A stretch of 64,000 nucleotides of DNA from Eunapius fragilis (Eukaryota; Porifera; Demospongiae; Spongillida; Spongillidae), in contig OY811974.1 of assembly GCA_963681505.1 (NCBI GenBank), positions 9,593,547 to 9,657,546 on the forward strand, given 5' to 3'. Below the pieces are notes generated by a model. That model saw only the letters and a list, made by a program, of their open reading frames with translations. It was not told the DNA's origin and made no database searches. Shown here piece after piece: positions 2,816-62,446 of the stretch (position 1 is its first letter; each line of letters starts with the position of its first letter). Made by a program: the position numbers and the translations under genes.

Positions 2816-3774
2816 CTATCGACGTCCTATTTTCAAGACATAATACTGCTTCATTCACCATTGTACAATATACATTTTGGGATCCTGTACTTGTTACGGG
2901 ACAATTATAAAACGTCCGATTTCCAGATGGCTTGAACCCGCCATATATTTCGACAGGAGCTTCAAATTCGGTTCGTAGAAGTCAGGAAACTCGTATGATC
3001 AAAGAATCACACGTATTGGTCCCCAGACCATTCATCTATGTGAAACACTTATTAATACGCGACTCGACGTCGTCATCCAGGATGGTAAAGGTCCACAATA
3101 ATTCTAACTAAGTTACTTCTTTTTTGATAACATTTAGAGGTCAGCACAATTGACTGTCACTGCATGATAGTTTGGATTAAAAATATATTTACAACTGATC
3201 ATATGTGGTACAAATGTGTTAGTAAATATGGTATATGTAACATCAACACAGTAGTAAAAATACACTGACAATAGCAGACATGTCACATACTTACTAACAC
3301 ATTTGATTAGTAGTAAATGTATTGTAAAATCCAAATGTTCGTGCAGTGTGATTATTCAAAAAAGCTGAAATGGGCAATGTATGCCGCACTGGAGATAATG
3401 AAAAGTCACTCTACTTATTGTGGTAAATGCCTCCTTGCAGAATGGTCTGATCATTGCCAATTCAAATTTCAAAATTAAATCAAATGCCTTATTTTACTGT
3501 GCACTAAATCATATCATTGTATCAAGTTGACAATTTAACTTCATACATTAATCAATACACACTTTGCACTGTTTTGGGCACCATTAATTTCAACAATGTC
3601 AGCATATGTTTCTTACTTTTTTTAATGCTATGATTTTCACAATGACATACAAATTATTTCACAGTGGCACACAGCAATATGTAGTAGGTGCCATGTACTA
3701 TTGATCATATTTGATTTCTCTATTCTATTTGTAAATGAAACAGAATCAATAAAATGCTATATATAATACAAGGT

Positions 3775-3905
3775 AACCCTATCATACTGCTGGTGCTCAC
3801 ACTTTCATATCCCCAAAACCTTGTTCTCTTCCTTTTTACACCACCGGTACCTTCAATTCCCATATCCCACCAACTTTCTCATTTGAGAATGTTATTCTTT
3901 ACTTA
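3775..3905 (+). mobile_element. Single arm of the foldback family
   Basis: This stretch holds the outward arm of the foldback family seen intact at 17434, 26163, 46260 and 58055. Shared words in order are CTTTTTACACCACC, CATATCCCACCAACTTTCTC, GAGAATGTT and TTTACTT. The partner arm is absent, so this is a truncated copy. Confidence 0.6.
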
Positions 3906-4297
3906 TATTACTGCTTACTTACCAAACACACAGGCCAATTTGAGTGATACTGGCTAACGTTATGGCTAATGTGATCTAAGATATATTTATTAACTGTGGT
4001 AATGGTAACCACATTTGTATGTGTAAGGAAACCGTTACAGTAAGTCTGAAGAAGTAAAAAAATATTTTAAAGGGTATTGATTTTTACTGTTGAAAAGCAG
4101 TTAATTTTCTTACTAGAGGTGAGTTGGCTTTAGCGATACCAAGATTGGTGTAAGTAAAGTGACCCTATGGAGATATGCTATAAATTGGTGCTACTCATGT
4201 ATTTTTAGGCTCTCTCATTGTAATGTCAATGATGCTTGTGGTCATAGGTCATGCTCTGGCAACATCTCTTTGATGCAATTTTGTACCTTTCAAACAG

Positions 4298-4398
4298 ATC
4301 AAGAAAACCTAATCATGAAATTAATGAAATCCCTGTTGGAGGGATGTCGGTTGTCAGAATGGGGGTATATTGACGCATTCAGAGAAATGATGGAACAG
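4298..4398 (+). CDS. Candidate internal exon, unknown protein
   Basis: A pyrimidine-rich stretch ending in CAAACAG precedes an open frame. That frame ends at GAACAG followed by GTGGGT, a plausible donor. The encoded residues include MKLMKSLLEGCRLSEWGY and FREMMEQ, an amphipathic helical segment. The exon is 101 nt long, so its two ends are in different phases. No neighbouring exon could be joined with confidence and I do not recognise the family. It may be spurious. Confidence 0.35.
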
Positions 4399-4869
4399 GT
4401 GGGTGCTGTCATATGCATGTACAACATGACCTGGATCAACCATATCACTTGTTTGTGGTGATAATCATAATGTTGGCCTGAAAGTGACATTAAATTTAAT
4501 CTTCACTGCTCTGGGTCATATTCGGACTGTAGTCACATAAATAGTATCCCATAGTGGCGCGAGGGGGTTAATCAAACAGAGGGGCACCATGGAGGGGGAG
4601 TGTGTGTGTGTGGGGGGGGGGGGGGGGTTTCTGACTAATGTATTAGGCATACATTTCAGCAAATAAGTATGGTTAGGTTGTGACTATCCCTACTCCATAA
4701 GTAGATTTGATAGTTCTTTTCTTCTTGGGTCACCTTGAGAAAGATATCCACTGCTGTGTTGTAGTTTACTGCATGGATGTGCTTAATGAATACTCATAAA
4801 TGCTAGCGATGAAAGCAGTGTACAGGTCATAGAGGACCTTAGCCAGTTTTCTCGGACGGCGTATAAGGT

Positions 4870-6109
4870 AGAAAAGCTTCTCACATTGGTACAAGTAGTA
4901 ATTGGAAGTGTTTTTTATCAAGCGGAAAATATTAGGAAAACGCTCTTCATCACAACTGAATCAAGTATCCGGACGATCAATTGGTGAACACGAAAAATAT
5001 GAAACACTTACAGGACACGATGGTATGAGAGAAATAGATGGATTCAAGTTCTAATTGACGCCGTTTGTTCAGAAATTGGAGGCAAAACGTGCGCAACTGA
5101 CGAATGGTACATGAAGATTAATCTTTGAGAATAGAACAAGGGAACATTATGATTATTATTATTTGGGTATGCATTGCTCGCTCATGGTTGACCTGGTATC
5201 GCAGAGAATCGTTCATAGCAGGCTCACTCGAGCTCAATGGTGCAATAAAAAAACAACTTCATCGAAGGAAACTGATTGCGCATTTTACAACTTAGATTAT
5301 CGATTCTCAGCCCTGCTTAGCGTGTTCGACCTATATTGTATCCAAAACCAACGATATATTTGTGATTGATGTAATACGGACGGTAACTTCACACGAGTAA
5401 CACAGCCACAGACATTAATTGACTAGGATTGTGTGCGTGTGCTTAAATTGGTGTGTGTGCGTATGGCGGGGGCGGAGGGGGGGGGGGGGGGGCTGCCCCA
5501 AATGCCCCCCCTCCCTTCCTCTATGCGAACGCCAGTGCACATGATAGCAAAGTTTATGAAACAACCATCATTTTTAGAAAATGGACTTTTATGAAGTCAC
5601 CACCCATGCTTGCTGTGTTGTGATGAATGTAATGCCTTCACAAATTAAATTCAATGGAAGTTGTAGTGACTGTGGGTCTGTGGCCAACGCACGCGCTGCG
5701 CCAGAACTACCGAGTTGTGGAGATTCTCAAATTGCCTAATCAGAGCGGTAACACACAACACAAGCACACACTCACACTGCCTGTCATGTTCCCATGCACG
5801 TTAGGACTAATGCTTCTGCCTCTGCCAGGTTGTCAACAACTTTTAATAGCGCTGGTCCATCACGTGCGAAGATGCTTCTAGATGCTTCTATCAGAGATAT
5901 ACTGTCTGGCTGCTTTAAGACCATGCAGATATCTAACAATTACACCCACACTTCCATAATATGCCTATTACAGCAATCACTACAGAAGTAAATGGTAACC
6001 ATGTGTAAATGTTTTTCACTCAAATGCTCCTCCTATTTTGAAGTGAACTGGTAGTTTAGAAATTTATTATTTTGGAGGCCTGATAGTAAGGGTAGATGAG
6101 AAATTTCTT
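4870..6109. other. No supported gene; G-run at ~5479-5492
   Basis: The interval contains a G homopolymer near 5479 next to a C-rich segment, and short open frames without splice or family support. I see no feature that I can name. Confidence 0.35.
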
Positions 6110-6355
6110 TGTGAGAAATAGAGTGGGATTTAAGATTCGCATTGCTGGTTTACAAAGCCAGGAAAAAAGACGTATTTTGGATTGATATCAGAATACAATA
6201 AACTTTGAATAGTCCTACATTTAAGAAACTATGCACTTCGAATTTCAATTTGCTAAATGTAGGACCGTCTGGTTTATGGTACCATCCCTTGTTTCCTTGC
6301 TTTTTACACCATTTATGCCTATCCTAAATCCCACTCTATTACTGAAAAAGAATTT
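6110..6355. mobile_element. Degenerate copy of the foldback family
   Basis: The left arm has GAGTGGGATTTAAG and a GGTTTACAAAGCCAGGAAA segment. The right arm has TTTCCTTGCTTTTTACACCA and CTAAATCCCACTC. The centre carries AGTCCTACATTTA and TAAATGTAGGAC. This is the arrangement of the intact foldbacks elsewhere in the window, but with many mismatches between arms. It looks like an old copy. Confidence 0.5.
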
Positions 6356-7405
6356 TTTAAATCTACATGTACTTGTTTGTTTGCTTTTTGGTATCATAGA
6401 GGGATTGGATAACTGGCAGATTAGCATTTGCAAATTAAAACTTTTTGTCATGAAGAATGACAGCTATCCTCATCTACAGACCCAATTACGTAAAATATTT
6501 GGCGAGCTAGCTGTCAATTATGTTAGCATTATCGGTAATTAATGATTTCGAAGCATTCGATAATGCTTACGTAATTGACGAGCATTGACTGGTTAGGACG
6601 GCCGAAGTGCTGTGTTCCGATGTTTGGACAACACTCCGCATTCCACTGTCACCGGTGCTGCTGTATCAATAGTTCCCACCATGCATACTAGGCCTGACTG
6701 CTCATACGAAGTTTGTTCGTGGCATCTGTAGTGAGACCACGGGCGTGAGCCGAAGGGAACGAAAGGCCATTTAAAATCACAGCTATATAGAGATACCCAC
6801 GTAATGATACAATTGGAAAGAATGTTTTTTTTTTTTTTTTTTTTTTTTTGTTGGTATAATACATGTGGTCAGGGTTGTGGTTCATACTCAGGACAGCAAT
6901 GGGGTGATGAACTGGGGAAAAGAAGACTCTATAACATGCCCTTTTTCTGACCCTATTCATTTCAGCATATTGTATTGATTACTCGTACCCAGACATTAAT
7001 AAACTACAATCTATGTAAGTCCTCGAACGAGGTAAAAACTGTCGGTGAGTTTTGCACAAGAACTAAGCTAACTGCCAACACGGTATCCATTGTGGCCTCC
7101 TGATAGTACCAAATGACTTTTTAAAGCGTATCCAAAACAGCTCTTAATTGCCTAGGAAAAAAGTGTCTTCGTAACCGAAAAACATAGAACCGAGTCAGTG
7201 TCCACGATAGATATTAGGCAGACAATAACGCCATATGTCTAGTTTAAATATCCAAAAATATTCTTTTCCATACAATTAGGGGCCTTCCGACTAATTTTTG
7301 GAATGTTGGGTTCGACAACAGGGGTATTCGATTCTCATGGATCCGGTGTTAAGCAATCCTTATTTGCAAATTTTATTGCAACGTATTATGAATCAACCTC
7401 AGTGT

Positions 7406-7497
7406 GATTTGAACCACTGACCTTGGGGTTGCTGATTTGAACCACTGACCTTGGGGTTGCGATAACACCGGTGTAGCCACTACGCCAATCGGAACAC
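7406..7497 (-). repeat. tRNA-derived SINE head with duplicated B box
   Basis: Read on the minus strand, TTGGCGTAGTGG matches the RNA polymerase III A box. GGTTCAAATC, about 35-40 nt downstream, matches the B box. The spacing is tRNA-like. The B-box segment is then repeated directly at 7406-7433, giving two B boxes. Anticodon-arm pairing is poor, so this is a SINE or tRNA pseudogene rather than a tRNA gene. The A+T-rich sequence further along may be its body. Confidence 0.5.
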
Positions 7498-8006
7498 CCC
7501 CTACCCCCTCCCATTTAGGGATGGTGCCATGCTTTATGGGATATCACATGCCAGAAAAAAGATATGCAAAATTATCTCGCAGTTAGAATTGCCGTCACCG
7601 ACATGAGTATGTAGTGGGCCATAGTACATCATGTGAGTGTATGCTCATGTCATCAGTGTACAAAGCGAATTTATATAATATCTCAACTCACAGCACTCTT
7701 GCAGAGAGTTTATGGTCGATGCATGTACATCATTTATATTTGGCGCTAGTCTCTGCCCCAAGCCACAAACATCACCCCCGTTGGCCTATTTCAAACGTGC
7801 AGTGATGTAATCTAACTGCGCGGTTACGCACAAGGAGCTGTGCATAACTATGAGGTATAAACAACAGGTTGGAACCCCCACCCCGCTTTAAACCCTTGTG
7901 GTGGTCCTGGTTATCCATCACATATATTCACCAGGATCAACCAAGCTATCTACAGCAAAGAATCATTGTTTATGGATATAGCAGCATCTCAACCCCCCTT
8001 AGTTGA

Positions 8007-8085
8007 ATGGGCGGGTCACAACAGGATAGTGCATTACAGATTAGTCTCTAAACTGTTTTCTACTGTTTTATCCCTTTTTCGACAT
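8007..8085 (+). repeat. Second copy of dispersed repeat at 1814
   Basis: The sequence matches 1814-1912 in the order GGGCGGGTCACAACAG, CATTACAGAT, TTTTATCCCTTTTT. It lacks a short segment present in the first copy. Confidence 0.6.
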
Positions 8086-8693
8086 CAATGACCAAGTGAA
8101 TTATATACGGCCCTTTACATCCGGTTGTTGGCCCCGTGAAATAGTTCACACATTTTCCGATAAAAACTGTTTGCTAAAAAATATGTATTTTTAATGCGAT
8201 CTACGGTCCATTAATTACCATGCATGCATAACAAAAAGCTGCTTCTGAGGGCGAAAAACAGTGGTTTTAAAGCGTAACTGAAAAATGTGTAAAGTTTTAG
8301 GAGGTTATACGCTTTGTCAGCAACCAGTGGGCGCGCTGATCTTCTCAAAGGAAGAGATTAGTAATACCAGCAGTGAATGTGCCACAAGAATATTGTCCAC
8401 ATTTCACTAAGCCTGACACTTTATTGTTCGGCTGGAGGGGTTAAAAATATACTAATGAAGGTATTTTTCTATTCCTATGGCATGTATGTGTGTTGAAGTG
8501 ATAAAAGAGTTTTGGTGGCTGCAATAGATCGTAATTACACGTGTATCATACTTTCATGGGCCGCGTGTTTAAATCACTTGTAAATTCACCGCGTGATTGA
8601 AGAGCTTCATACCATCATCTATTAAATCGAAAATTGTGTTTCTTTCACTGCGATTCTGCGATTGAACAGTGACAAAAAAACAAACAGCATTAC

Positions 8694-10578: not shown

Positions 10579-10960
10579 TAATTTATAGACAATAGCAACG
10601 CGTGCGTAGCAACCAATAATTTCAATATTTACATAGTAACCATTCTATAGTTTTGACGCCGCGTGAAATGGTTACTGATATTATATATATAGGCATGAAA
10701 CAAACGGAATATCGCAACAGTGTATCGTAGTAGCGAGTAGGTGCTTGATTGGATTTTACTTGCAGTTCTTCTGAAATTACGTTGATCCCTAAGATTTCAG
10801 TGTATTTCTAATCAATTTATAGACACATCAACGCGTACGTAGCAAACAATAAATTATCACACTAAAATAGGTACATAGCAACCACTTAACTCAAGCTACG
10901 TTTACTGACGTCGCGAGCAGTATACGTGTATCGAACTAATAGGACATCGTTTAATTTTGT
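10579..10960 (+). repeat. Imperfect tandem duplication, ~240 bp spacing
   Basis: AATTTATAGACA, followed by CAACGCGT..CGTAGCAA and a later TAGCAACCA segment, occurs at 10579 and again at 10817 with matching order and spacing. The copies have diverged by point changes and indels. The unit lies within the intron before the transmembrane exon. Confidence 0.5.
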
Positions 10961-11293
10961 ACAAACGCAACCATGCAACGTCACCAGGAGTATGCATGTG
11001 TTCTTCTTATTTTTAAATTCTCATGTACATTAACAACATAACATTGTGCTGAACATCATTGTTTTCAATTATATACTGTAACAACTAAGTTTCAGCCAGC
11101 ATAATATTTTTTATAATAATAAGTACATGCGATAGGAACACGCATTAATAGCACTAATTAGTAACGAACATGCGTTCATAACGTTATCATGACATGTACT
11201 GCGTGAAAGTAGGGTCCGAGTATACGGATCAGTTTGTAATGCTCACCGTATACTGACTATGTGCCAGAAGGGTGATTCTATATAGGTCCTAGC

Positions 11294-13654: not shown

Positions 13655-13877
13655 ATCTGCCTGATTAGAGTTACGTTACTTTCATGTAGAATTTGACCAC
13701 GATCATGAATGTCATTAAAAACTGGACCCGCTTCTAACGGGACTCCTATCAATCGGGTCGCTTAGATCTTTGTTATCGTAGAACAAGCAGTCAAAAAAGA
13801 GCAGTTTAGTGTTTGTTTGATGTCATAAAACCGCGTGGTTGTAGAGAACAAAACACTTGTATCAGCTCGTACCCAGC
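13655..13877 (+). mobile_element. Fragment of the hairpin-foldback element (block only)
   Basis: TTTGACCACGATCATGAATG, a TCATTAAAAA motif, CGCGTGGTTGTAGAGAACAA and a GTACCCAGCC motif align in order with the blocks at 25.7, 45.7 and 60.2 kb. The terminal hairpin is degenerate here (TTAC-GTTA-CTTT). The foldback end is missing because the block runs into gypsy-like sequence at about 13877. Confidence 0.55.
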
Positions 13878-17433: not shown

Positions 17434-18240
17434 ACAAGTCAATAAAAACATTCTCTCTGAGAAAGTTGGTGGGATATAGGTTTTTCAGGCAAATAGTATA
17501 CTGGTGTAAAAAGCAAGGAAACAAGTTTCATCAGAAGGGAAAATGTAATAGTCCTATATTTAGCACACTTCGACTAAGGCATATGCTGTTTCTGTGCTAA
17601 ATATAGGACTATTACATTTTCCCTTCTGATGAAACTTGTTTCCTTGCTTTTTACACCAGTATACTATTTGCCTGAAAAACCTATATCCCACCAACTTTCT
17701 CAGAGAGAATGTTTTTATTTACTTGTTTCCTTAATTTTTTTAACACCCAAATCACTGTTGCATCGCAGGCTTCCCCCCTTTCATTTAACCGATTTAATTC
17801 CATCCAGACGTATTGTGAAAATTTTCTAGGTACCTTTGCTTAATTAGAATTGGTAAGACCGTATATAGGCTTTTAGGCGTTTTTGTATCAAAGCGAGTCC
17901 TCCAGCAAATTCTAAAGCTATTGGTGCAATTTTCATTGCTTAAAAGTGTTCCTGTCCCGAGTTATGAGTTCTCAAGAAGAAGAAGAAGAAGCAGAAGCAG
18001 ACGACCCGCCCATTATTTTTGGAAGGGGAACGAGGACGGCAGTAATTTTCGTTCTCGACAACCACGCGGTTCTACGACGTGAAAAAAAAACGAAACTACT
18101 CAGTTTTGACTTCTAGATCGATTGCCGCAACAAGTTAGACGATCCGATCGTCGGGAGCGAAGCTACGGTAGGGTCGCGTGATTTTAATTAAATTCATAGT
18201 CGGGGTCAAAACCTATATGGAAGTCTCTAGCGAGACTTCC
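17434..18240 (-). mobile_element. Hairpin-foldback element, copy 1
   Basis: In this orientation the foldback comes first (17434-17726) and the terminal hairpin last (18219-18240). The foldback arms begin ACAAGT and end ACTTGT and are near-perfect complements about 130 nt long around a loop of about 30 nt. The block between them reads, on the minus strand, GACCCCGACTATGAATTTAA, GATCGGATCGTC, an ACCGCGTGG-like word and a CTTCTTCTTCTT tract. The last 22 nt fold as GGAAGTCTC, TAGC, GAGACTTCC and are followed by GAT. No protein is encoded. Copy 2 at 25648 is the closest relative. Confidence 0.8.
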
Positions 18241-18248
18241 GATGTATG

Positions 18249-25112: not shown

Positions 25113-25647
25113 TATGTAAGAAAAGGATGTCATAACAAATTGCAACACCTGGAAATACTTTTTACCAGGCAGTAGTGTTCAGCATAACGGTAGATAGAAG
25201 TCTTTTTCAAAAAAAAAAAAGAATGGCTGGCAATGCCCACCATGAAATTGCATCCAAAAGATATAGGCAAGGGCTGGAAATCTTAGGTTTTGGCACCACC
25301 CTGCAGGGGTGGATCCAGGATTTTTGAAAGGGGGGGGGGCTTATTATAAAAAAGTTGTATTCTAAATCTGTGCATGGGGCACTAATTAAATACCATTTTG
25401 GTTTAAGTAGGAACGATGCTTCACTTTGTGCGCATAAGTTAATACAGGTATAGCATTATAAAAAGCGCGTATATACATGTAGTTAATTAGTCGTAATTAT
25501 TTTCGTTACTTATCCGAAAGGGGGGGGCTGCAGCCCCCATAGCCCCCCCCCCCCCTGGATCCGCCTCTGCCCTGCATATCTGCAGATGAATGAGACTGAG
25601 ACAGTTCTTGCTAGATGCAAAAGAATCATGCATCCAAAATGGATATC

Positions 25648-26455
25648 GGAAGTCTCGCTAGAGACTTCCATATAGGTTTTGACCCCGACTATGAATTTAA
25701 TTAAAATCTCGCGACCCTACCGTAGCTTCGCTCCCGACGATCGGATCGTCTAACCTGTTGCGGCAATCGATCTAGAAGTCAAAACTGAGTAGTTTCGTTT
25801 TTGTTTCACGTCGTAGAACTGCGTGGTTGTCGAGAACAAAAAATACTACTGTCCTCGTTCCCCTTCCAAAAATAATGGGCGGGTCGTCTGCTTCTGCTTC
25901 TTCTTCTTCTTCTTCTTGAGAACTCATAACTCGGGACAGGAACACTTTTAAGCAATGAAAATTGCACCAATAGCTTTAGAATTTGCTGGAGGACTCGCCA
26001 TAGTCGATGTTAGGCTTTGATACACAAAAGCCTATATACGGTCTTATCAATTCTAATTAAGCAAAAGTACCTAAAAAATTTCACAATACGTCTGGATTGA
26101 GGTTAAATGAAAGGGGGAAACCTGCGATGCAACAGTGATTGGTTGTTAAAAAAATTAAGGAAACAAGTAAATAAAAACATTCTCTCTGAGTAAGTTGGTG
26201 GGATATAGGTTTTGCAGGCAAATAGTATACTGGTGTAAAAAGCACTGAAACAAGTTTTATCAGAAGGGAAAATGTAATAGTCCTATATTTAGCACAGAAA
26301 CAGCATATGCCTTAGTCGAAGTGTGCTAAATATAAGACTATTACATTTTCCCTTCTGATAAAACTTGTTTCAGTGCTTTTTACACCAGTATACTATTTGC
26401 CTGCAAAACCTATATCCCACCAACTTACTCAGAGAGAATGTTTTTATTTACTTGT
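25648..26455 (+). mobile_element. Hairpin-foldback element, copy 2
   Basis: The terminal hairpin at 25648-25669 is GGAAGTCTC, GCTA, GAGACTTCC, preceded by AT and C. The block runs to about 26160 with TGACCCCGACTATGAAT, GATCGGATCGTC, GCGTGGTTGTCGAGAACAA, a CTTCTTCTTCTT tract, ACTCGGGACAGGAAC and GCTGGAGGACTCGC. The foldback is 26163-26455. It differs from copy 1 at several arm positions, and each change is mirrored in the other arm (for example GAGTAAGTTGG opposite CCAACTTACTC). The centre has TAGCACAGAAACAGCATATG. No open frame spans the element. Confidence 0.8.
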
Positions 26456-28877: not shown

Positions 28878-29030
28878 ATTGGACAATGTCATGGCAAAAG
28901 TTGATCAGATCCATCTGACGCGACTTTACCCTATGGGTGTATACAGTGCATTTCATGATTGTTGTTTAAAATAATTTTTCCATCACTGTTGTGTTAACAT
29001 GAAATTGTTTTGTCAACAAAAGGAGAAAAT

Positions 29031-30190
29031 TAATTGCTAATATACATTCATTTTTATTAACCCATATCCAAAAAAACGTTTTGATAGCTATCTCAGTGCC
29101 TAGTTGATGGATTGGGATGAAATTTGCACTATAACTATAGCTCATTGATGCAAAGTGTTTGACCGAGTCAGTTTTTAAACTTGGTAAAAAGGTAAGCCAT
29201 TGCAGTGCGTGAGGTGTCACTTTAGTTCCTCTAAGGTTAGCATCGCTGTTTTCTATTACGCTAATCATACATTGCAAGAGTTTATGCAATGATTGAGAAA
29301 TGGCTGGCCTATCGAAATGTTGCTCGTTTCGGGCGCTATTGCGCACTTTGCTGTACAAAATATCAATTCGTATGTGGGTGAGCCAAAAACGAGCCATTTT
29401 TGTATGAATACAATTAAATACTTGCTTTCTTGTATACATGGCGGAGCTCGAGGGTGTTGCTAGCAAAATGGTGACATCTGTTAGATGTAAGCTACGGAAA
29501 GGGAAACCCCTCACGCTGCATATCAGCTGCGTGTCATCAACAAATCTGCCAACTTGGAAAGGATCGAAGATGCAATTAAGGAATTTGAATGCTTGGCTGA
29601 TTATATGCCCTAGCTTCCTGATTCAAATCTAAGGGTTCTGGCGTTGCAACTGTATTTTAGATCTAGTCAGCTGATGGCGAATGACTCGTACTCGCTGCAC
29701 CCTGATCATTCCCGGTTTGGTTTTGAAAAGAACTGTGTAACTCATTAACAACACCCTCGAGCTCCACCATATACAAGTAAGCAACTACTATCGTTACATC
29801 ACATTCATTTAGAAGAAATAAAAAAGTGGCTACGTTTTTTGCTCTCCCACACACAAGTTGATATTTTGTACAGCAAAGTGCACGATAGCGCCCAAAATGA
29901 GCAACATTTCGATAGGCCAGCCATATCTCAATCATTGCATAAACTCTTGCAATGTATGATTAGCGTAATAGAAAACAGCGATGCTAACCTTAGCGGAACT
30001 AATGTGACACCTCAAGTACTGCAACGGCTTACCTCTTTCCCAGGTTTAAAAACTGACTCGGTCAAACGCTTTGGATCAATGAGCTATAGTTTAAGTGCAA
30101 ATTTCATTCCAATCCATCAACTAGGCACTGAGATTGCTATCAAAACGTTTTTTTGGACATGGGTTAATGAAAATGAATATATATTAGCAA
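29031..30190. repeat. Large inverted duplication, arms ~420 bp
   Basis: The left arm (29031-29458) and right arm (29749-30190) are inverted copies around a spacer of about 290 bp. Each arm ends, reading towards the spacer, in ATG followed by (GCG/GTG)GAGCTCGAGGGTGTT. Those frames start at 29438 on the plus strand and 29770 on the minus strand. They encode MAELEGV and MVELEGV and then diverge. The spacer has a stop-interrupted helical frame (LERIEDAIKEFECLADY). Frames across the arms in the opposite sense (QHFDRPAISQSLHKLL) are conserved between arms but may be shadows. Confidence 0.7.
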
Positions 30191-30446
30191 TAACTATTGT
30201 AACTATAACAAGATATTGAAAACTAGTTTTCAAACATAATTGTGCAGTTAGATTGTAATTTTCTCTTTCTGTTGGGACAACATTTTTTTGGACAACTATC
30301 ACGAAATCCACTGTAAAGGATCAGGACTGAGTCATTTATTTTTGTTCATAAATTAGTCTATTGACCAGCCTCATTATTTAGTAGTATAATGTTGAGAAAC
30401 CATTGACGTTTTATTTCTCTCTCACTCATGCCATTACCATCTTAAG

Positions 30447-32965
30447 AAGAGAAGGATAAACAAGAGTTCCATGCTAAACCTCAAGATTCTTTGGCATCCA
30501 GCACTATTGAAGCAGGTGCAAGTGACAATGACCCTACCATTTCCTCATTGTTAGAAGGGGTCATAGAAGACTCACAAAGTAGCAGCAGTACAAAAGGCAT
30601 CACTGTGAACCTTCTACTTAGTAGCAGTTCAGTTGATACATGGCATATTAGCAAAGACATTTCTTTGACTGTGTGGGTACGTCAAAGCAGAAAGACCAAG
30701 AAACATTTACTCAGTGAACTTGGAGACTTTGCAGATGATGCAATAGAATTTATTGAGAAGAGCGAACATGCTATTGCTGCTATTGCTGCTGCTGAGATTG
30801 CTGCTATTGCTGCTGCTGAGATTGCTGCTAAAAAGAAGACTATTTGTGCAAACCTAGCAAAACATGGCATTAACAAACTATCACAATGGGAAAAATGTCC
30901 AGTGGAAAAACATAAGGACATATTGTCAGATGACATGTTGTTTTTCTTCAGCATGCGGGTATCAGAGTGGAGGGAGAAGCAGTGGAAGTGGAGGGAGAAG
31001 CAGTGGAATGAATTTCTCAGTAACTTAGTACAGAAAGAGGTCCCATCCTTTTCCCATTTGACATATCACCATAGCTTCACAACTAGTTCTGGGTCATCAC
31101 CAATGCTTGGAGAAGATCGGAGAAGTAGTTTAGACTTATTACTTAAACGTCTGAGGCAGGGCTCTGCTGCTCCTTCCAGAGACCTCAACCCAATACATTC
31201 CTTAATAGCCCAATCACGACAGGGAAAGTCTTTGTTTCTTGATGTTGTTTGTGAGCATGTTAGAAAGTCTGGCCAATTTGCTATATGCATATCATACAAC
31301 AGCAGAACTAAGTATGTTGAAGAGGAAAAGGACTCCCTTTTAGAAAGTTTAGCATGGTATTTTTGGGCCCGCGTAGTCCATGCCATTGTTAATACAGTAA
31401 ATAAACAGGAAATAACGTGGGGAACATTTAAATCATATCCCTTTCTTCCATGTCTCACTATTAGACGTGTACTTGATTTAATCAACAAGTGCCTGCCTAT
31501 GTTTGCTGGTAAACCTGTACTTTTTGCAGCTGATGAGTTTTCGCATGTTCTGAAGGACCTGAAAAAGTTGGATGTTTCAGATTCTATAAGGCGTACTGCA
31601 ATCGAATCTATTACATCTTCCATCTATAATGAAAACTGCACTCTGTTGGTTTCTGGTTTTGAAGTTGAAAATAACTCTGTCTTTCAGACCGTAAGTACTC
31701 GTCCAGTGGAAAGGTACTGGTTGCTCCCAGTAACTTCGGCAGATCGCAAGCATTATCAGCCACTAATTCAGCAACTGAAAGATTACTACAAGAAGGACAA
31801 TGATTTTCCATTCTTACTATACGAATGGACCAAGTTCTCACCTGGACTGTTGGGGCTGTGGCTTGAAAAGCTGATCACTTGCAAAGTGTCAAAGATTGAG
31901 GACTTACGTCCTCCAGTGTTGGAAGACATCTCGTCCATGGTCGCAAAAGACAAGACATTTTATGCATCGTATTGGAAAGAGTGTTTTGATATGAGGGGGA
32001 CTACAAATGTCTTAAAATTGAATTGCATGAAGAAATATGAAGCTGTTGGAACGTTTATCCAACTCTCATCAACAGAAGGATTTCTCAATCCCTTTCTTGT
32101 CATCCACCCTTTTGTCAGCAATAAGTACATGAAATCAGAGAGCGATTTGTTCAATCGCATCATTGCAGCATTTACAAAGGATCCAAGTGAATGGGACCCT
32201 GATGCCAAAGATGATGTACTGGAAAAGATGATTGCATGTGCACTGGAGCTCAGACAGATCCACAGTAGTGGTTCATTTCCATTTACCACTATCGTCAATG
32301 CACTGTGTGGTTTGAAAAAATTCCCCACTGCTACTATAGTAACTAATGCTGCATATACATTTCGCAAGTCCGTTGCTCTAAAAGAAGTGGAGACATTTCC
32401 ATGCCACACCTGCAGTGTCGGAAATAAGGGTGACCCTTGCGAAAGATGGAGGAATCCAACCAAAGATGAAGTGGAGAAACGACAACAAAATGGTATAGCT
32501 GCCCTTAAATCCTATGGTGTGATACATCCCACTGCAGCCTGTAACAAAGGCTGTGATGTGGTACTGGTGGTTGATTGTGAGGATAAAGGCATAGCTATTC
32601 TTATGTTTGAAGCCAAGTACTACGGTTGGAGTACAGTGTTTGATGACAAAAGTGCATCAGTGAAGGCATATGATGCACTAGAGGGACTTCTGAATGGAGC
32701 AATGGGTGACTGTAAAGTGTTCCACGTGTGCTTCATAATGTGCACTACAGGTGACAAGGAGATCTATTACGACATGAACTATAAACCAAGCGGAAGGAAA
32801 CAAACACTGAGAAAGTGCATTGCAGATTTGAGTAAAATGGAGACAACTGTCTCCCTCCACCACGTGAGAAATGCAGACCATTGGATGAACCTACTAACTC
32901 CAGTTTTGTACTATGGCCTACCTGATGCCGATGAGGGTACAAATAATGCAAAACCACAACAATGA
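30447..32965 (+). CDS. P-loop NTPase fused to PD-(D/E)XK nuclease, Crinkler/CR-like
   Basis: This is the only long intron-free frame in the window. Residues are numbered from TTG at 30491, where the conceptual translation starts. That codon is not a believable start: the frame is open upstream to 30446, where a pyrimidine-rich stretch ending TCTTAAG looks like an acceptor. The first in-frame ATG would come only near residue 149, so an upstream exon probably supplies the start. The N-terminus is Ser-rich, then an Ala/Ile repeat (94-113). AQSRQGKSLFL (240-250) is a Walker A with Ala for the first Gly. VLFAADE (343-349) is Walker B, and LLVSGFE may be sensor 1. GCDVVLVVD (688-695) and FEAKYY (706-711) give D..E-x-K of a restriction-like nuclease. 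This order matches CR effector-type proteins, some of which are found in animals (established knowledge). DNA cleavage is inferred. Confidence 0.7.
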
Positions 32966-41311: not shown

Positions 41312-42555
41312 TCAGGACCTACGTTAGTAGGTCCTATGTAGGATTTGAAGTGTGGTGAATACGATTAGCAAAACACCAGATTCCACTATTGCCGTTGCAC
41401 CGTAGAATCAGCTGGACTTTAGCGAGCGTATTTGGATACAGCCAACAATTACCTACAATGTAATAAAACTGCCGACGCTTAGAAAGCCCAGGCAACAGAG
41501 ATAACGCTCTCTCGTTCCCACACTCGAACCTGAAAAAAAGTTTCTCCATCTTCTTCTTCCGGATCTGATAAGATAAGATTTGCTTGGATAAGAGGTTTAT
41601 TGCATTGCATCTTTGTCACGATTGAAGTATAATTTTAGCCGTTATGCGGAAGCACTAGAACCAACAAGTTAGAAACTTATTGTCGAGTTGGATTTGTTTT
41701 ATTATGTTAGAAACGAGGTTATGCTTGACACAAATTTCAATCTCTAGCAAACTTAGTTTTGTTAGTATAGCCCACAACAGATTTTATCAGCCTTTGGAAG
41801 ACAAAAGTGGGCGGGAACGTGTGCTTGAACACGTTCTATATCTCATATAGTGCGCTATTACAGTTTTTGTCACGGTTGTACGGTGTACCAAAAGCTTGAC
41901 GTGTCTGGTTTGTTGTCTTCAAAATGCCATCACGTCGCTCGTGAAGAGAAATGAATCGCTCAAAGAAGATCGCAAAGTTAAATGATGACTGTTGTGTTGG
42001 CGAGTCGCATGATATTGAGGAGCGTGACAATTTTCAAGAAGCGCATAAAGAAAAGAAGACTTGCGAGCGCGACAGGAAGCGCTACAAAGCCGATCCTGAG
42101 AGTAAAAAGGATAGCATGAAGGCCCAATGCATGTGAGCAGATCAAATGGTCTCTTGTGCTACGATAGAGTATTATTCTAAAGTTGCCCAATACATGCCTC
42201 AATATGCATATATACTTCCTCCTTCGTTTATTCTCATGCATAAAAATGTGTGAAACAAGATATAAAAATTTAATTAAAATAAAATTGGTGATGTAGGATT
42301 TGTAGACAGCAACTGAGTAAAAAGTAAGGAAACAAGGATTACGGATATTAGGCATTCATTTAATTATAAATATTACAGACCTACATTATTTAGCAAATCT
42401 ACCTCCTTGAAATTCTGTGCTAAATGTAGGTATGTAATATTAATAATTAAATGAATGCCTAATATCCGTAATCCTTGTTTCCTTACTTTTTACTCAATTG
42501 CTGTCTACAAATCCTACATCACTAATTTTATTTTAATTAAATTTTTATATCTTGT
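41312..42555 (+). mobile_element. Hairpin-foldback element, copy 3, inserted in a tandem repeat
   Basis: The terminal hairpin AGGACCTAC, GTTA, GTAGGTCCT is at 41314-41335. The block is diverged but keeps a CTTCTTCTTC tract near 41550. The foldback is 42255-42555 with its own arm sequence (GTAGGATTTGTAGACAGCAA opposite its complement). Left of the element the host reads GTCTGTCCATAT. Right of it, 34-bp repeats continue with GGAGTTACAG. The element therefore splits one repeat unit, which defines both ends. An exon-like frame lies inside at 41951-42135. Confidence 0.75.
41951..42135 (+). CDS. Exon with Y-x-x-DP-x-x-K repeat, carried in copy 3
   Basis: ATG opens MNRSKKIAKLNDDCCVGES, and the frame continues with ERDRKRYKADPESKKDSMKA to TGCAT before GTGAGC, a good donor. 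Y-x-A-DP-E-x-K-K-x-S resembles short basic repeats that often precede Helitron-type or other transposon proteins in invertebrates (inference from memory). A relic with YSDPKQMRASARDS is present at about 57930 in copy 5, at the same place relative to the foldback. The rest of the gene is missing in both copies. Confidence 0.4.
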
Positions 42556-42777: not shown

Positions 42778-42884
42778 GGACAATACTGTGCTAAGTTCCT
42801 TTTCACTGCAATGATCCCACCTAGTGACATGGAGTATTCATTGACCACCACCTTATACATCTCCATTGTATCCCATGCACCCTC

Positions 42885-43383
42885 CCCACACACACTCTCC
42901 ATATACCCTCCCCACAACCCTCCACACACACCCTCTCCATACACCCTCCCCATACATCCTCTCCATATACCCTCCCCATACACCCTCCCCACACCCTCTC
43001 CATACACCCTCCCCATACCCCCTCCCCACATACCCTCTCCATACACCCTCCCCACACCCTCTCCATACACCCTCCCCATACACCCTCCCCACACACCCTC
43101 CCCATACACCCTACCCACACCCTCCCCACACACCCTCCATACACCCTCTCCATACATCCTCTCCATACACCCCCACACACTCTCCATACACCCTCTCCAC
43201 ACACCCTCCCCATACACCCTCCCCACACACCCTCCATAACCCTCCCCACACACCCTCCCCATACACCCTCCCCACACACCCTCTCCATACACCCTCCCCA
43301 CACACCCTCCGCATACATCCTCCCCACACACTCTCCATACACCCTCCCCATACACCCTCCCCATACACCCTCCCCATACCCTA
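42885..43383 (+). repeat. CCCTCCCCATACA-type minisatellite
   Basis: About 35 irregular units of 12-15 bp (CCCTCCCCATACA, CCCTCTCCATACA, CCCTCCACACA). The array forms the pyrimidine-rich end of an intron, immediately upstream of the acceptor at 43386. Long frames on both strands (GRVYGEGVW type) are artefacts of the repeat. Confidence 0.9.
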
Positions 43384-43386
43384 CAG

Positions 43387-43602
43387 AAGGCTGCCAGTGT
43401 TGACCATGGTATAATGGATTGGAACCTTCCTGTCATCCAGAAGTCTGCTAAGATCTCTGACCCCAAGGAGGACGCACAGCCTTTGGACTCTGAGAAGGTA
43501 GTGGCTCCTCCAGTCCCCAGTCCTTCTGATTCCAAGGCCGTGGGGACACCAGTGGAGAGTAAAGCCAGTGGTATTCCTACTGAGCAAAGATCTGTGAGAA
43601 AG
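43387..43602 (+). CDS. 216-nt exon, Pro/Ser/Lys-rich
   Basis: The acceptor CCCTACAG and donor GAAAG|GTTGGT bound exactly 72 codons in phase 0. The residues include KAASVDHGIMDWNLPVIQKS, DPKEDAQPLDSEKVV and PSPSDSKAVGTPVESK. The segment looks disordered and linker-like. The next plus-strand exon (44806-45021) is also 216 nt and phase 0, so they join in frame. An alternative donor four bases later (GTGAGC) would break the phase match. Confidence 0.5.
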
Positions 43603-44036
43603 GTTGGTGAGCAATGGTGATGAGAGGGAGTGGGGAAGAGGAAGATATGTTATATACTACAAGAAGCTACTGTTACCATGGTGATGTGGGTGTAGTAAGA
43701 GGAGTGTGGTTATTGGGCCGGGCTATTAGGTTCTGAATTTAGAATCTAATTGATAAGTGACAATTTCAAAACTGGTTAATATATTGACTGTTTGGGTGTC
43801 TTCAACAATTTTAGTCTGTCTGTGTATTTGTATTTACATGTAGTTGACCAAATGGTGCGCTGCTGTGATGAAATAACTTCGAGTCTTTGTCAATGAATGT
43901 TTTTATTAATGGCATACTAATAATCTGTATTATTAATAATGTTATTACTATTCACAGTAATTGAAACATAACTACCCAAACCTGTATTCCATGAGTTAGG
44001 GGTGTTAACACATACGCATGGGGGTCGGGACCAATG

Positions 44037-44271
44037 GGGGGCAGGACCCAATGGGGGCAGGACCCAATGGGGGGCAGGACCCAATGGGGGGCAGGACCCA
44101 ATTGGGGGCAGGACCCAATGGGGGGCAGGACCCAATAGGGGGCAGGACCCAATAGGGGGCAGGACCCAATCGGGAGCAGGACCAAATGGGGGGCAGAACC
44201 CAATGGGGGGCAGGACCCAATGGGGGCAGGACCAAATGGGGGGCAGGACCCAATGGGGACGGGACCCAATG
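44037..44271 (+). repeat. GGGGGCAGGACCCAAT minisatellite
   Basis: About 14 units of 16-18 bp with variable G number. The frames on both strands are repeat artefacts. It lies in the intron between the two 216-nt exons. Confidence 0.9.
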
Positions 44272-44310
44272 TAAGCCTCTTGGTATGTTCTACACTGGTT
44301 GTTAGTTAAA

Positions 44311-44395: not shown

Positions 44396-44456
44396 TGTAG
44401 CTGTAGTGACATTCCTGGTACATGTGCTCTTGATGTTACATTCCTCCCTCTTGATT

Positions 44457-44641
<185 letters not shown>

Positions 44642-45150: not shown

Positions 45151-45673
45151 TGTACCTCAAGCTCTAACAGATATGGGCACCTAGGTGTTGTACTTGTGAA
45201 AAATCTTTGAGGCTTAATGCAGCTGAACCATGTGGGAATCTATGTTCTTGGCCATGAACCAGATGGTAGGAAATACACTAAACAAAAGATCATTTCAATA
45301 GAACATATGCTCAGTTCCCCGGAATTGGTCTGCTTTAAATCGTTGGAGATTTTTTCCACTTTTAAATTGCACAGGGACAAGAGATCTAGGGTGTGGGCTG
45401 AATTAATGTCCCTGTTGCAATGATTGAAGTACTTGTTTTGTGCCATGTTCTGACCTCCTAATTCTATTGCTACAGTGATTGTTTAAATCTCAAGGAAGAC
45501 GATAGGCTCTTTTTATAGTTGTTATTGCATGCTTTATCATATGTGTGTATGCATAGGACAGTGTAAAGCTAAATTATCTGCATAGCATTGTAATTAAATA
45601 GAAATTTTGTGTAGAAAATTCAGCTAGAAATTGACCCTGTTGGATTTTATGTAGATGTACATGTACATGTATC

Positions 45674-46545
45674 GGAAGTTTCGTTAGAAACTTCCATATA
45701 CGATTTGACCCCGACTATGAATGTCATTAAAAAACCGCGACCCGTCTGTAACAACACTCCCGACGATCGGATCGTGTAGCTTGTTTTAGCAATCGATCTA
45801 GAAGTCAAAAATGAGTAGTTTCGTTTTTGTTTCATGTCGCTGAACCGCGTGGTTGTTGAGAACAAGAGTGTACTGCCCGTCCTCGTACCCAGTCTCGGAA
45901 CAAGGGGCGGGTCGTCTTCTCATTCTTCTTCTCCTTCTTGGCAACGCATAACTCAGGACAGGAACATTTCTAAGCGATGAAAATTTCACCAATAGCTTCA
46001 GAATCGGCTGGAGGACTCGCTTTTATATAATATAATACTTTGATAAACAATCGACTATCAGCCTCCTATGTCTTGTTAGTCTCGTACCCAGACCGTCTAT
46101 GACGTAAGCGATTATTGCTGTAAACAGTATAATCACTACGTCCATACGTATGGACGTAGTGATTATACTGTTTAAAGCGATAATCGCTTACGTCATAGAC
46201 GGTCTGGGTACGAGACTAATGTCTTGTATAATTAAATGGTATGAAAAAAAATAAAGAAAACAAGTAAATAAAAACATTCTCTACGAGAAAGTTGGTGGGA
46301 TATAGGATTTGATTATGACACTGGTGGTGTAAAAAGCAAGGAAACAAGGTCTTATCAGAAGGGAAAATGTCATAGTCCTATATTTAGCACACAAACAACA
46401 CATGCCCTAGAAATGTGCTAAATATAGGACTATGACATTTTCCCTTCTGATAAGACCTTGTTTCCTTGCTTTTTACACCACCAGTGTCATAATCAAATCC
46501 TATATCCCACCAACTTTCTCGTAGAGAATGTTTTTATTTACTTGT
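45674..46545 (+). mobile_element. Hairpin-foldback element, copy 4 (with nested MITE)
   Basis: The terminal hairpin GGAAGTTTC, GTTA, GAAACTTCC (45674-45695) is followed by TTTGACCCCGACTATGAATG, GATCGGATCGTG, ACCGCGTGGTTGTTGAGAAC, CTCGTACCCAGTC, a CTTCTTCTCC tract and GCTGGAGGACTCGC. The foldback is 46260-46545. The block is interrupted by a separate palindromic element at 46077-46218. The foldback arms differ from copies 1 and 2 (GATTATGACACTGG) yet match each other. Confidence 0.8.
46077..46218. mobile_element. 142-bp palindromic MITE with 9-bp TSD, nested in copy 4
   Basis: The two 71-nt halves are complementary with about two mismatches, starting TAGTCTCGTACCCAGACCG. ATGTCTTGT flanks both sides (46068-46076 and 46219-46227). 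A 9-bp duplication is compatible with Mutator-like transposition (inference). It has no coding capacity. Confidence 0.8.
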
Positions 46546-57330: not shown

Positions 57331-57413
57331 GCTGTAACTGTCATGCAATAATTAATCCTGTACGTAGTATACATTCATTCCCATTCGCGTATTCAATGAT
57401 AATATTATAATCA

Positions 57414-58342
57414 GGAACTACGATAGTATAGGAATTGACCCAGGTCGTGAATATCATTTTAAAAACGCGCCTAGCGTATATAATAACTCGCGTACCAAGA
57501 AACGGATAGTTCAGCTCTTTGTTCCTATCGAACCAGAAGGCAAAGACGGTCATTTAAATGTTTTGTTCCAGTCTTCAAACTGTTTGCTTCAAGAGAACAA
57601 AAAAGCTCGTGTTTTTCCTCGTCCCCAGGCTAATTCTTCTCCATCGTCGTGTAATTCTTCTTCTTCTTCCTCGCGCGAGTACAACTCGGGATAGGAATGG
57701 TTTTAAAGAGCGCAATTATACCATTCGCTTTATAATCTCCTGGAAGGACATCTTCTGGTATCAGATATACGAATAAAGCATAAAGCTGACATACGTAATC
57801 ATTACGTAATATGGAGTGCTATGTTTAACCGTTCCCATGGCGACATTTCTGTATATTTAGAATTGTGCAAACAAAAGAGGAGTGCTAAACAACGAGAGGA
57901 ATCCTCCAAAGTCGAGACGACGAGTTAGAATTCTCCCGCGTTCAGTACAGTGATCCCAAACAAATGCGGGCGTCTGCTCGTGACAGTAATTGAAGCGGGG
58001 GGGGGGGACTTGTAAGTATTAATAATCGATCAAAAAAAAAAAAAAATAGTGGAAACAAGTAAAGAAAAACATTCTCTGACGAGAAAGTTGGTGGAATATA
58101 GGCATTGGAGGCAAAGGTGGTGTAAAAAGGAGGGGAACAAGGTTTGGAGAATAGGGTAATGAGACAAAAATTCTATATTTAGCACATGTAAATGTAACAG
58201 AACCAAAAGAAGTGCTAAATATAGGATTTTTGTCTCATTACCCTTTTCTCCAAACCTTGTTCCCCTCCTTTTTACACCACCTTTGCCTCCAATTCCTATA
58301 TCCCACCAACTTTCTTGTCTGAGAATGTTTTTCTTTACTTGT
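57414..58342 (+). mobile_element. Hairpin-foldback element, copy 5
   Basis: The terminal hairpin is degenerate (GGAACTAC, GATA, GTATAGG). The block keeps GTCGTGAATATCATTTTAAA, a CTTCTTCTTCTTCC tract and CAACTCGGGATAGGAA. The foldback is 58055-58342, with the distinct arm sequence GCATTGGAGGCAAAGGTGG and its complement. Between block and foldback, at about 57900-58005, is a relic frame (RVQYSDPKQMRASARDS) comparable to the exon in copy 3. TATAA lies on both sides but is too short to call a target duplication. Confidence 0.7.
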
Positions 58343-59415: not shown

Positions 59416-61577
59416 CCTTGGATTATTACGTTGTGGCCCGAGGTCATGCTTTTTTTTTCACTGTACAAGAACGTGAGTGGACGTGTGCATGTGTGTACAT
59501 ATCTCTCTGAGTGTTGTTCAACTTGCAGATCTGCCGGACATAGTGCCATACTGTATCTGGTGTCTCCGAGCCAAAATCACGCGCAGCTGCTGTGATGGGA
59601 CACGATGTTCAAACATGAACGCAACCCCGGCATCCTGTGCTTATGAACATCGTATACGTCATTGTACAAAGTCTAGGTAACTGTGCATGCTTTATTGTAC
59701 ATGTGTCCTTTGGCACCGCATTATCATAGGTGACATTATTAATCTGTATGGCATGATGAAGTGAAAAAGTTTGTAGTAAATTAGATTTGTACAACACACC
59801 GCGTGCCTTGTAAAAATGATTGTGCACTGGAGCATGGGTAACACCTAGGTACTTAAGAGGGGCGTAATGGGAACGAGACTCCAAAAGCAAGGCCCAATAG
59901 TTCCTTTGGTTCCTCACCTTTTGCCTCTAATTGGGGCGGGGTGGGGGAGTGGGCGGGGAGGGGAGGGGGGGGGGGGCTGATATGATGAATATAGGTGAGG
60001 GTAGAGATCCAGCGGGGTACACAGGATATGTAAATATGTTATGGTCATTCTCATCACAAGAAGGAATGGATTCCTACACTACCTACTGTATTTCATGAAG
60101 GTGCAAGGTGCATTGCAACCAAAGCACTATGTCCCTCTTGATAGTATCGGAACCTACGCGAGTAGGTTCCATATAGGAATCCAACAGTATCATGAATGTC
60201 ATTAAAAAAACATCACTCACGTCTAGCGGGACATTTAAGAATCGGGTCACTTCGCTCTTAGTGGCATTCGAGCGATATAAAAAAGGACAACAGTTCTACG
60301 TTGTATTTGTGTCACAAGACGGTGTACTTTTAGAGAACAAAAATACTCGTCCCCATCGTCCGTACCCAGTCCCACCTAAAATTTCTCCTCCGTCGGCTTC
60401 TTCTTCTTCTTCTTCCTTCCGGAGAGTATAACTCACGACAGGAACGTTTGTAAAGCACGCCAAGTGTACCAATCGCTTCAGGATGCGTCTGCAGGTTATC
60501 TTCGGGGGTCTGTTAGACGCCTAACTGTTCGGGCAATTAACTAAAGCGAATAGTACCTCATTTGGTATTCGGTTAAAAATACCCAATTACATCGGCTAGC
60601 TATTTTTAAATGCAATAATAGCCACGTGTCGTGGGCGTGATTCAAATTCTTAATATTCCCGCACGCTGTGGAAGAGGTATACGCACTGAATCCAAGAGCC
60701 TTTTCGGGTCCCTACGGCTCCATGTATAAATGTCCAACCATAATGCCAAATGGTTGAGAAACGGAATGGAGCAGCGATAACGTTATAGGAAGGCTCCTGA
60801 CGAATATTCAAGGTATCATTTTCTGCATGACGCCTGTGCGTTACTCTCAACTCTTATCATTCGTTACGCAGCTTGAAATGAAAGCCAAAACTACCATACA
60901 CGTAAGTACCCGAAACTATCGCATATAATTGTTTTGACCGAATTGATTTCTATACTATAGCTTCTTATATAGCATAACTTTCGAATTCTGTCGGTGGAAC
61001 TACATACGCGATCAGATACTACGGTATACAGTCTACAGCAGATAATGTGAAGCAAGAGGCTCCAATTAGAATGTGTCTCCCCCACACCACCGCCCTTACA
61101 GAAAAAAAACCCGGCAACAACTAGCCACTCGTACACCTACAGATATGCCAAACGAGTGCAATACAAGACACGACAAGGTGTCAAGCGCGATACTGAAAGG
61201 ACCATCAAAGCGACCACCCCGAAGGTGCGTTACACCATGAATGTTGGATCTGGACATAAATTATAGCATGTATAGTGTATCGCTAAAATATTTTATGCAA
61301 CAGTTACAGCGGAAGATATTGCATCTCTCTCCATGCTGTTGTTTGAAATATGTGCACGCTGTTCGCTGACAACAATTTCGTAATAATGTTAATGTGTATT
61401 GTGGTGCATAATTTATATCTAATAGTATCAAAGTTGCTGATGACAACGTATTGTGGTTTATCTGATAATAGCGTGAGATCAGTGGGTACATGTAATCTTT
61501 GTCTGATGTATTATATGGCTTCACTTGCCAGTAGAGGATTTGTTTTAACTAATGGTTGTTTAAATCACCTGTTTCAG

Positions 61578-61729
61578 GTCCAGGTCCAGGAGTGGTTCCA
61601 TGTCCAGCTGCAGGATTAGCTTCACCTGCTCTACCTGCTATATATCCTGGATATACAGAAGTATATCCTGGTCCAGAATATACAGCAGTATATCCTATAC
61701 AAGATGACATGCTCCTGGGTTATAAATGA
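61578..61729 (+). CDS. Terminal exon, Pro/Gly/Tyr-rich tail, inside copy 6
   Basis: CACCTGTTTCAG precedes PGPGVVPCPAAGLASPALPA, then IYPGYTEVYPGPEYTAVYP, IQDDMLLGYK and a TGA. YPG/YPGP repeats look like a flexible cytoplasmic or secreted tail with possible Tyr signals. AATAAA lies about 90 nt downstream at 61819. No upstream exon was found within the element. The piece may have been captured by the element or may belong to a host gene into which two element fragments inserted. Confidence 0.5.
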
Positions 61730-61818
61730 AATACTTGTACTTATTGTTTAAATAGTAATACTGTGTGTTTTAATGGTACACCCACACCTCAAAAAATTGC
61801 ATGGCCACGAGATTCTAA

Positions 61819-61824
61819 AATAAA
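61819..61824 (+). terminator. Polyadenylation signal AATAAA
   Basis: A canonical hexamer about 90 nt after the stop of the Pro/Gly/Tyr-rich exon. Confidence 0.4.
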
Positions 61825-62446
61825 ACTGTCATTTGACATTCTTGCTACATGGTTACTTTTCAAGAACTAAATACAATACTAAATCTACCAAAAAATGTAG
61901 GAAACAAGTGATAAAAACATTCTCTATGCGAGAAGGTTGGTGGTATATAGGAATCAAAGGCGGTGGTGGTGTAAAAAGCAAGGGAACAAGGATTGTGATT
62001 GAAAAGGAAAAATGAAATAGACCTATATTAGCACACACAGTTAAACATGACGACATGCTGCTAATATAGGTCTATTTCTTTTTTCCTTTTCAATCACAAT
62101 CCTTGTTCCCTTGCTTTTTACACCACCACCGCCTTTGATTCCTATATACCACCAACCTTCTCGCATAGAGAATGTTTTTATCACTTGTATTCTAAGAGTT
62201 TGAATAGACTTCCTGTTCCAGGTTGCAGCTTGAAGATACACATATTGGACGCATACATGTGAGATGTTCAGGCTCTTGGCACAGATATGATCCGATTGGA
62301 GGGATCGCTCATAGTGTGAAGTGTTTATCTGTACGATAGATAGCCTGTTTGTTTATAAGTATTTTTCAGCAATGCAGGAACAGATTTAGATGGAGTACGG
62401 TGCAATAAATCGTTACCATGGATACAATTGGGGGGTTGCTTCTCCC

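Follow-up and report, generated by a model that had tools for sequence, protein, structure and literature searches.

The repeated units found in the window, by which we mean the whole 64,000-nucleotide stretch of DNA analysed here, are very probably non-autonomous deletion derivatives of Helitron rolling-circle transposons, sharing their ends with long copies in the same genome. Their 3' foldback is, in six of the seven subfamilies, a Helitron-style end, with its short hairpin and CTTG, joined to a mirror image of itself. How the 3' end of Helitrons is marked and finished is still poorly understood, and with thousands of ends, several subfamilies and long open transposase copies at hand, natural covariation offers a reading of the terminator as well as of the 5' hairpin and the inverted repeat.

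Repeated units in the window and the anatomy of their ends

Six units in the window show a hairpin, then a conserved block with a CTT tract, then a foldback, and both the order and the relative orientation of these parts are constant in all six. The long element H055, described below, has a CTT-like tract too, placed upstream of its coding region. The units, the parts of the copy at 25646 and two remnants are as follows.

25646..26454, plus strand: complete non-autonomous Helitron of subfamily A, 809 bp, between host A at 25645 and host T at 26455
25648..25669, plus strand: 5' terminal hairpin of the 25646 copy, 9-bp stem and GCTA loop, immediately 3' of TC
25670..25681, plus strand: asymmetric inverted repeat of the 25646 copy, 5' copy, ATATAGGTTTTG
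25888..25917, plus strand: CTT tract inside the conserved block of the 25646 copy
26163..26454, plus strand: 3' foldback of the 25646 copy, an inverted duplication of the 3' end
26404..26415, plus strand: asymmetric inverted repeat of the 25646 copy, 3' copy, CAAAACCTATAT, in the distal arm, 39 nt from the 3' end
26422..26442, plus strand: site of the short 3' hairpin of the 25646 copy, 12 nt short of the 3' end; the hairpin is of the AAC.TTCTC-loop-GAGAA.GTT type
17435..18242, minus strand: second subfamily A copy, 808 bp, hairpin at 18219-18240
41312..42554, plus strand: subfamily E copy, an internal deletion of the long element H055 with the start of the coding region retained
45672..46544, plus strand: subfamily B copy; a palindromic insert is nested in it at 46076-46219
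57411..58341, plus strand: subfamily D copy, its 5' hairpin lacking part of the 3' half
60147..62187, plus strand: subfamily C copy, 2041 bp, related to C-type long Helitrons
13678..13853, plus strand: degenerate remnant of a 5' block
3797..3904, plus strand: lone foldback-arm remnant

The joints of all six copies are alike, a host A being followed by the element, TC...CTTG, and then by a host T; the 3' end is CTTG, not CTRR, in each of them. The sequence-only reading had described a 22-nt hairpin at six positions and a foldback ending in ACTTGT. The six units are real and CTTG closes all of them, but the final T belongs to the host. The hairpin does have 22 nt (9 bp and a 4-nt loop of the GNNA type), except that it is partly deleted in the 57411 copy, and position 17434 is not a hairpin site, that copy lying on the minus strand. 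The foldbacks in the window have arms of 132-135 nt (153 nt in one), a spacing of 22-35 nt and a complementarity of 93-100%; in the 25646 copy the arms lie at about 26163-26296 and 26322-26455, with a loop of 25 nt.

The 5' hairpin was compared in nine chosen sequences carrying seven different stems, the deleted hairpin at 57411 being replaced by that of its relative L075. All 81 cells of the 9-bp stem are paired; seven of the nine pairs have changed on both sides and two are invariant. The stem scored 0.784 for covariation, whereas shuffles scored 0.259 and slid alignments no more than 0.151, and the number of further pair types in the stem was not above that in shuffles (10 versus 10.5). Directly 3' of the hairpin stands a word of 11-14 nt, and an inverted copy of it lies 35-41 nt from the 3' end in eight of nine elements, which represent seven subfamilies with C and E each counted twice. 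It begins 23-24 nt from the 5' end (16 nt in the deleted D copy), and the null obtained with shuffled 5' ends reached 8 nt at the 95% point and 9-11 nt at its maximum; in B the exact word is only 7 nt long and lies inside its null. Since the words fit the 3' end of their own family best, or tied for best, the pair evolves together. At the other end, folding with RNA parameters placed a short hairpin about 12 nt before the 3' end in A (the 17435 copy), B, C, D, F and G, and none was seen in the E-type ends. The 17435 copy has kept this hairpin intact; that of the 25646 copy is mutated, and folding there favours another pairing.

Some other features of the window are recorded here for themselves. 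The insert at 46076-46219, nested in the B copy, is a near-perfect palindrome with arms of 72 nt (97%), TAGTCTCGTACCCAGAC-type ends and ATGTCTTGT on either side, and it resembles another small transposon with an 8-9 bp duplication; similar TAGTCTCGTACCCAG ends are present in L101. An inverted repeat with 366-nt arms, 92% complementary and spaced by 441 nt, lies at 29026-30198, and an open frame of 824 codons at 30491-32965 has no Pfam match above the curated cut-off. Short-unit tandem arrays (about 13 and 17 nt) occupy 42852-43408 and 43986-44306, with opposed long open frames at the first, and a long CT microsatellite at about 44456-44640 adjoins them.

Genomic abundance, autonomous partners and insertion site

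The genome searched comprises 218.9 Mb in 24 contigs. The 25648 unit gave at least 92 matches in it (the best 40 of 2,851 candidates scored), many of the full 808 bp at 90-97%. The A/B hairpin pattern (25 nt, up to 2 mismatches) matched 1,364 times and its reversed control not at all, and the 20-nt arm terminus matched 7,160 times and its control 4 times, so that the observed unit is far beyond chance. As a separate observation, the A-type matches in L034, L035, L036 and L037 stop within the distal arm beside other sequence and may be premature ends; the flanks of L035 and L036 are shared and may represent a single event that was duplicated.

Whether the parts travel together was read from the exact matches listed for the first 5.8 Mb of contig C1. 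Among them an arm terminus lay within 3 kb downstream of 21 of 29 hairpins and within 3 kb upstream of none of the 29, the expectation for random positions being 3.65% of draws. Conversely, among the matches listed on C1, 29 foldbacks were complete and exact, and 12 of them had an exact A/B hairpin on the proper side. In the first eight foldbacks without one, five had another hairpin type or a mismatched one and the detector found no hairpin in three; two of these three (L084 and L086) have an A/B-type 5' block nearby, and L082 is a foldback for which no 5' part was found. Hairpin blocks and foldbacks occurring independently, each with duplications of its own, were not seen, the independence of the foldback having been examined on this small sample only.

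These counts bear on the idea that a DDE-type foldback or MITE and a separate hairpin repeat were fused by chance. The foldback does resemble a terminal-inverted-repeat element, arm termini exceed A/B hairpins (7,160 versus 1,364), an exact A/B hairpin is near just those 12 of the 29 listed foldbacks, and L082 showed a foldback but no 5' part. However, one complete foldback gives two arm-terminus matches and other hairpin types exist; moreover, there are no target duplications, and the foldback also closes long Helitrons and contains the 3' copy of the 5'-end repeat. Such a fusion is extremely improbable, and it was rejected on the missing duplications and the common ends. The earlier description of the unit as a composite, in the sense of two joined elements, is not supported; its companion claim, that of a single mobile element with fixed and different ends, is upheld.

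A longer autonomous copy between the same ends, the search for which had been proposed, was found in the genome. Helitron_like_N matches number 91, many within open frames of 1,500-2,100 codons. The element H055, joined from three neighbouring stretches of C9, is about 10.4 kb long, with an A|TCAGGACC hairpin at about 672, a 2,020-codon frame at about 2491-8551 and a foldback at 10740-11042. The window copy at 41312-42554 matches its two end parts, 670-1512 (90%) and 10613-11042 (93%), and is thus an internal deletion of it. The H055 protein has Pfam matches to DUF6570, Helitron_like_N, PIF1, Pif1_2B and, C-terminally, OTU, and none of the 13 Pfam matches of this one partner protein (E up to 0.1) is to an AP endonuclease. 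The Rep part aligns with Helraiser (7lcc, E 1.7e-8), and H824, H826, Y965 and Y969 are invariant across 12 aligned proteins, query included, the autonomous partner having an HUH, two-tyrosine Rep plus a PIF1-type helicase. A|TC with a hairpin starts all five further long-frame loci examined (L051, L059, L069, C2:13.9 Mb and C2:6.5 Mb) and also the four chimaera copies L060-L063 discussed below. The 3' foldback was located for L051 and L059 (C), C2:13.9 Mb (G) and C2:6.5 Mb (F); for L069 (E2) no foldback was found 5.6-10.3 kb from the Rep domain. Both ends are present on one long element in E (H055), C (L051, L059), F and G, the middle being read through for H055 alone.

Among the relatives of the Rep part, the best named full-length ones are proteins of Ephydatia muelleri (71% identity), unnamed ones reaching 73%. 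They hint at a sponge as the host, though as no more than a guess, given that Helitrons are able to move between species. Viral contigs scanned with the protein alignment gave 73 loci, which match the helicase part only (query residues ~1237-1796) and were set aside. The genome also holds a second Helitron group (L041-L046) in which the Helitron_like_N match is stronger; downstream of second-group frames, a 144-nt palindrome (86%) at L073:7635-7778 is a candidate 3' end.

As read from sequence comparison, the elements insert between A and T without target duplication. The A-family set comprises 41 sequences, 39 from the genome and 2 from the window. In 37 of the 41 the 5' end is readable, with ATC in 31 and another sequence in 6, and in 37 the 3' end is readable, with GT in 35. 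When the joined flanks of 33 two-ended copies were compared with the collected sequences, two usable empty sites were obtained, both A^T. The copy L008 is inserted in an E-type Helitron whose empty version in L074 reads ..TTCTATA^TTTCAT.., the joint showing neither loss nor doubling; for L031 the empty version in L073 reads ..GGGATA^TAGTAC.., with a 10-nt gap slightly left of the joint. L007 was excluded, its flanks once joined matching tandem repeats within the same locus. In addition, comparison with the uninterrupted L051-L053, L059, L064 and L065 places the 5' side of the nested C copy of L060-L063 at A^T, although this copy begins with TT, not TC. Beside the 41312 copy the repeat unit is CCATGTGG, where an unfilled A^T site predicts CCATATGG, one base being different. 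A target site duplication was not found in 25 copies, the mean flank match being 0.92 nt versus 0.86 nt in shuffles; these copies had been selected for exact ATC and CTTGT borders, so that A and T at the joint are there by selection. The fixed-length target duplication of terminal-inverted-repeat and foldback transposons was likewise not found in this comparison, and insertion without target duplication is borne out by both the two empty sites and these counts. In the right flanks of the A copies, position +5 is A in 18 of the 25 exact-boundary copies, a possible preference beyond A^T.

With the protein and the insertion site in hand, the comparison with Helentrons made by the sequence-only reading can be weighed. 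That the units are true Helentrons or HINE/DINE-1 derivatives would fit the inverted repeats of 11-14 nt, the 5' hairpin, the microsatellite and the OTU domain, which are alike in the available parts of two reports (PMC4067079, PMC7492417), OTU being reported there for Helentrons. On the other side, no endonuclease match was obtained, the insertion is at A^T and not at TT, and the Rep motif RGAPHYH in P0001 has A between G and P, that is RGAPH and not RGSPH, neither the S that the available part of PMC4067079 reports for Helentrons nor the alternative L of Helitrons. This identity is unlikely, and it was rejected on these three defining points. What stands of the comparison is the Helitron superfamily, the inverted repeats, the microsatellite and OTU; what does not is the endonuclease, the TT target and the RGS motif.

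The mirrored 3' end as a proposed terminator and the change of its arms

In each of the four loci L060-L063 a nested C element interrupts, at one shared position, the coding region of a C-type Helitron. Their 5' flanks are mutually unrelated in the four copies, and so are the 3' flanks past the CTTGT of the nested foldback; thus the chimaera inserted at four places. This suggests that it moved at least three times, each time ending at the nested foldback, and the four insertions lend support to a terminator role of the foldback. In Helraiser the 3' hairpin is described as the terminator, its loss leading to read-through (available part of PMC4778049). Next to the Helitron frames of L060-L063 there is C-type sequence that had also been considered as the partner's own end; since it turned out to be a nested insertion, this candidate was abandoned.

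The two arms of a foldback are far more alike within a copy than between copies. In 57 distinct foldbacks, drawn from 61 found in the collected loci and the window, arm identity has a median of 99.2% within a copy (0.71-1.0) versus 79.5% between copies (0.53-1.0). In 33 aligned A copies (133 pairs, 4,306 cells), 65 single changes were counted, together with 28 complementary double changes, which represent 11 events at 10 pairs; other, non-complementary doubles number 0, and about 0.25 doubles would be expected if the arms changed independently. Single changes amount to 0.75% per site in the arms, or 1.4% counting doubles, versus 2.4% in the block. Five of the 11 double-change events are transversions, six are private to one copy, and a change on one side only at the same pair is known for just four. 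In a check of 37 foldbacks, indels were found in 14: in each of the A copies L018, L022 and L031 the two arms share an identical indel, which is the copy's only one; in ten foldbacks the indels are of the one-arm kind alone (L028 is counted here, the inserts in its two arms being alike yet unequal), and a single B-like copy combines the two kinds. The loop has the same orientation in all 25 scorable A copies, 8 of the 33 not being scorable.

These symmetrical changes look like the evolutionary trace of a folded single-stranded intermediate. Probably one arm serves, in the folded strand, as the template by which the second is corrected or copied anew, which keeps the arms alike. Two other accounts concern the same data. 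For the arm mechanism only, selection alone might suffice, in that foldbacks which pair well terminate and spread, mutations being compensated singly and nothing being copied; compensatory change under constraint is indeed seen in the 5' hairpin, and the lack of any non-complementary double in the arms fits equally. Yet a unilateral intermediate is known at the pair in only those four of 11 events, five of the 11 are transversions and six private to one copy, and in three copies an identical indel is shared by the two arms, so that we regard selection alone as possible rather than probable. In parvoviruses a hairpin end primes its own copying, is resolved by nicking and has its loop inverted. 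An end of this kind, at which the foldback primes itself, is resolved by nicking and has its loop turned from time to time, would agree with the HUH nickase, the terminal hairpin and the symmetrical arms; the single loop orientation speaks against it, as the loop is never turned and hairpin transfer is thereby disfavoured. With 0 of 25 loops turned, this model is very unlikely and was rejected.

A likely course of transposition, held with more certainty than the correction or re-copying of the arms, is as follows. Rep would nick at A|TC, the helicase would displace one strand, and copying would stop where the 3' signal folds; the mirrored 3' end would let the displaced strand close into a duplex of about 130 bp, providing both a strong terminator and a double-stranded 3' end. 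It is conceivable, if doubtful, that the mirrored end is a working double-stranded terminus on a single-stranded transposon intermediate: the displaced strand would snap back, the proximal arm would serve as template for rebuilding the distal one in the course of transposition, and second-strand synthesis could be primed by the paired 3' OH. If this is true, Helitron ends would be kept by templated repair, which would explain why the arms stay alike while the families diverge.

Comparison with known systems

The likenesses and differences given here are those found in the available parts of the cited papers. No Helitron whose 3' end is mirrored or forms a long foldback was found described in the titles and abstracts of the literature searched, most subscription papers and Repbase lying outside its scope, and the titles and abstracts on sponge Helitrons do not describe a mirrored 3' end either. 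Provisionally, we therefore regard the inverted duplication of the 3' end as a new part of Helitrons.

Canonical Helitrons, with Helraiser as the example, are alike in the 5'-TC, the Rep/PIF1 protein and a short 3' hairpin which serves as terminator and lies about 11 nt from the end (PMC4778049), and canonical Helitrons also insert at A^T (PMC4067079). They differ in the CTAG/CTRR end, in a palindrome of just 19 bp and in having no 5' hairpin in the part of PMC4778049 available. The proto-Helentron of Phytophthora shares the A^T insertion and the lack of an endonuclease, but it has TT at the 5' end and CTAG at the 3' end, and no foldback is described for it in the available part of the source (PMC4067079). 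Helentrons, HINE and DINE-1 elements are similar in their subterminal inverted repeats, 3' palindrome, microsatellite and deletion derivatives, and differ in the AP endonuclease, the TT target and, in mite families, a 3' palindrome of 5-10 bp (PMC4067079, PMC7492417).

The nearest 5' ends met in the literature are those of FoHeli1 and FoHeli2 of Fusarium, which insert after AT and have asymmetric inverted repeats and a hairpin at the very start, the 5' end of FoHeli1 being TCAG (PMC5148889). Their 3' end, however, is ATTTT with a short hairpin, and the available part of that paper describes no long foldback (PMC5148889). The Helitron2 group encodes a RepHel protein, carries short inverted repeats that are asymmetric, and has a hairpin at either end, the 5' one showing compensatory change (PMC3627910); hairpins at both ends were found here too, except that E is without the short 3' one. 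In Helitron2, however, the inverted repeat forms the 5' hairpin itself, 0-2 nt from the 5' end, whereas here it follows the hairpin, and Helitron2 inserts after TTTT, whereas the present elements insert at A^T and have an inverted duplication as their 3' end (PMC3627910). By their protein, their target and the lack of a duplication the elements belong with Helitrons. They are not canonical Helitron1, given their CTTG end and 5' hairpin, and are only partly Helitron2, given the inverted repeat after the 5' hairpin and the A^T insertion; they mix Helitron1 traits (TC, A^T) with Helitron2-like ones, namely the covarying 5' hairpin and the asymmetric inverted repeat.
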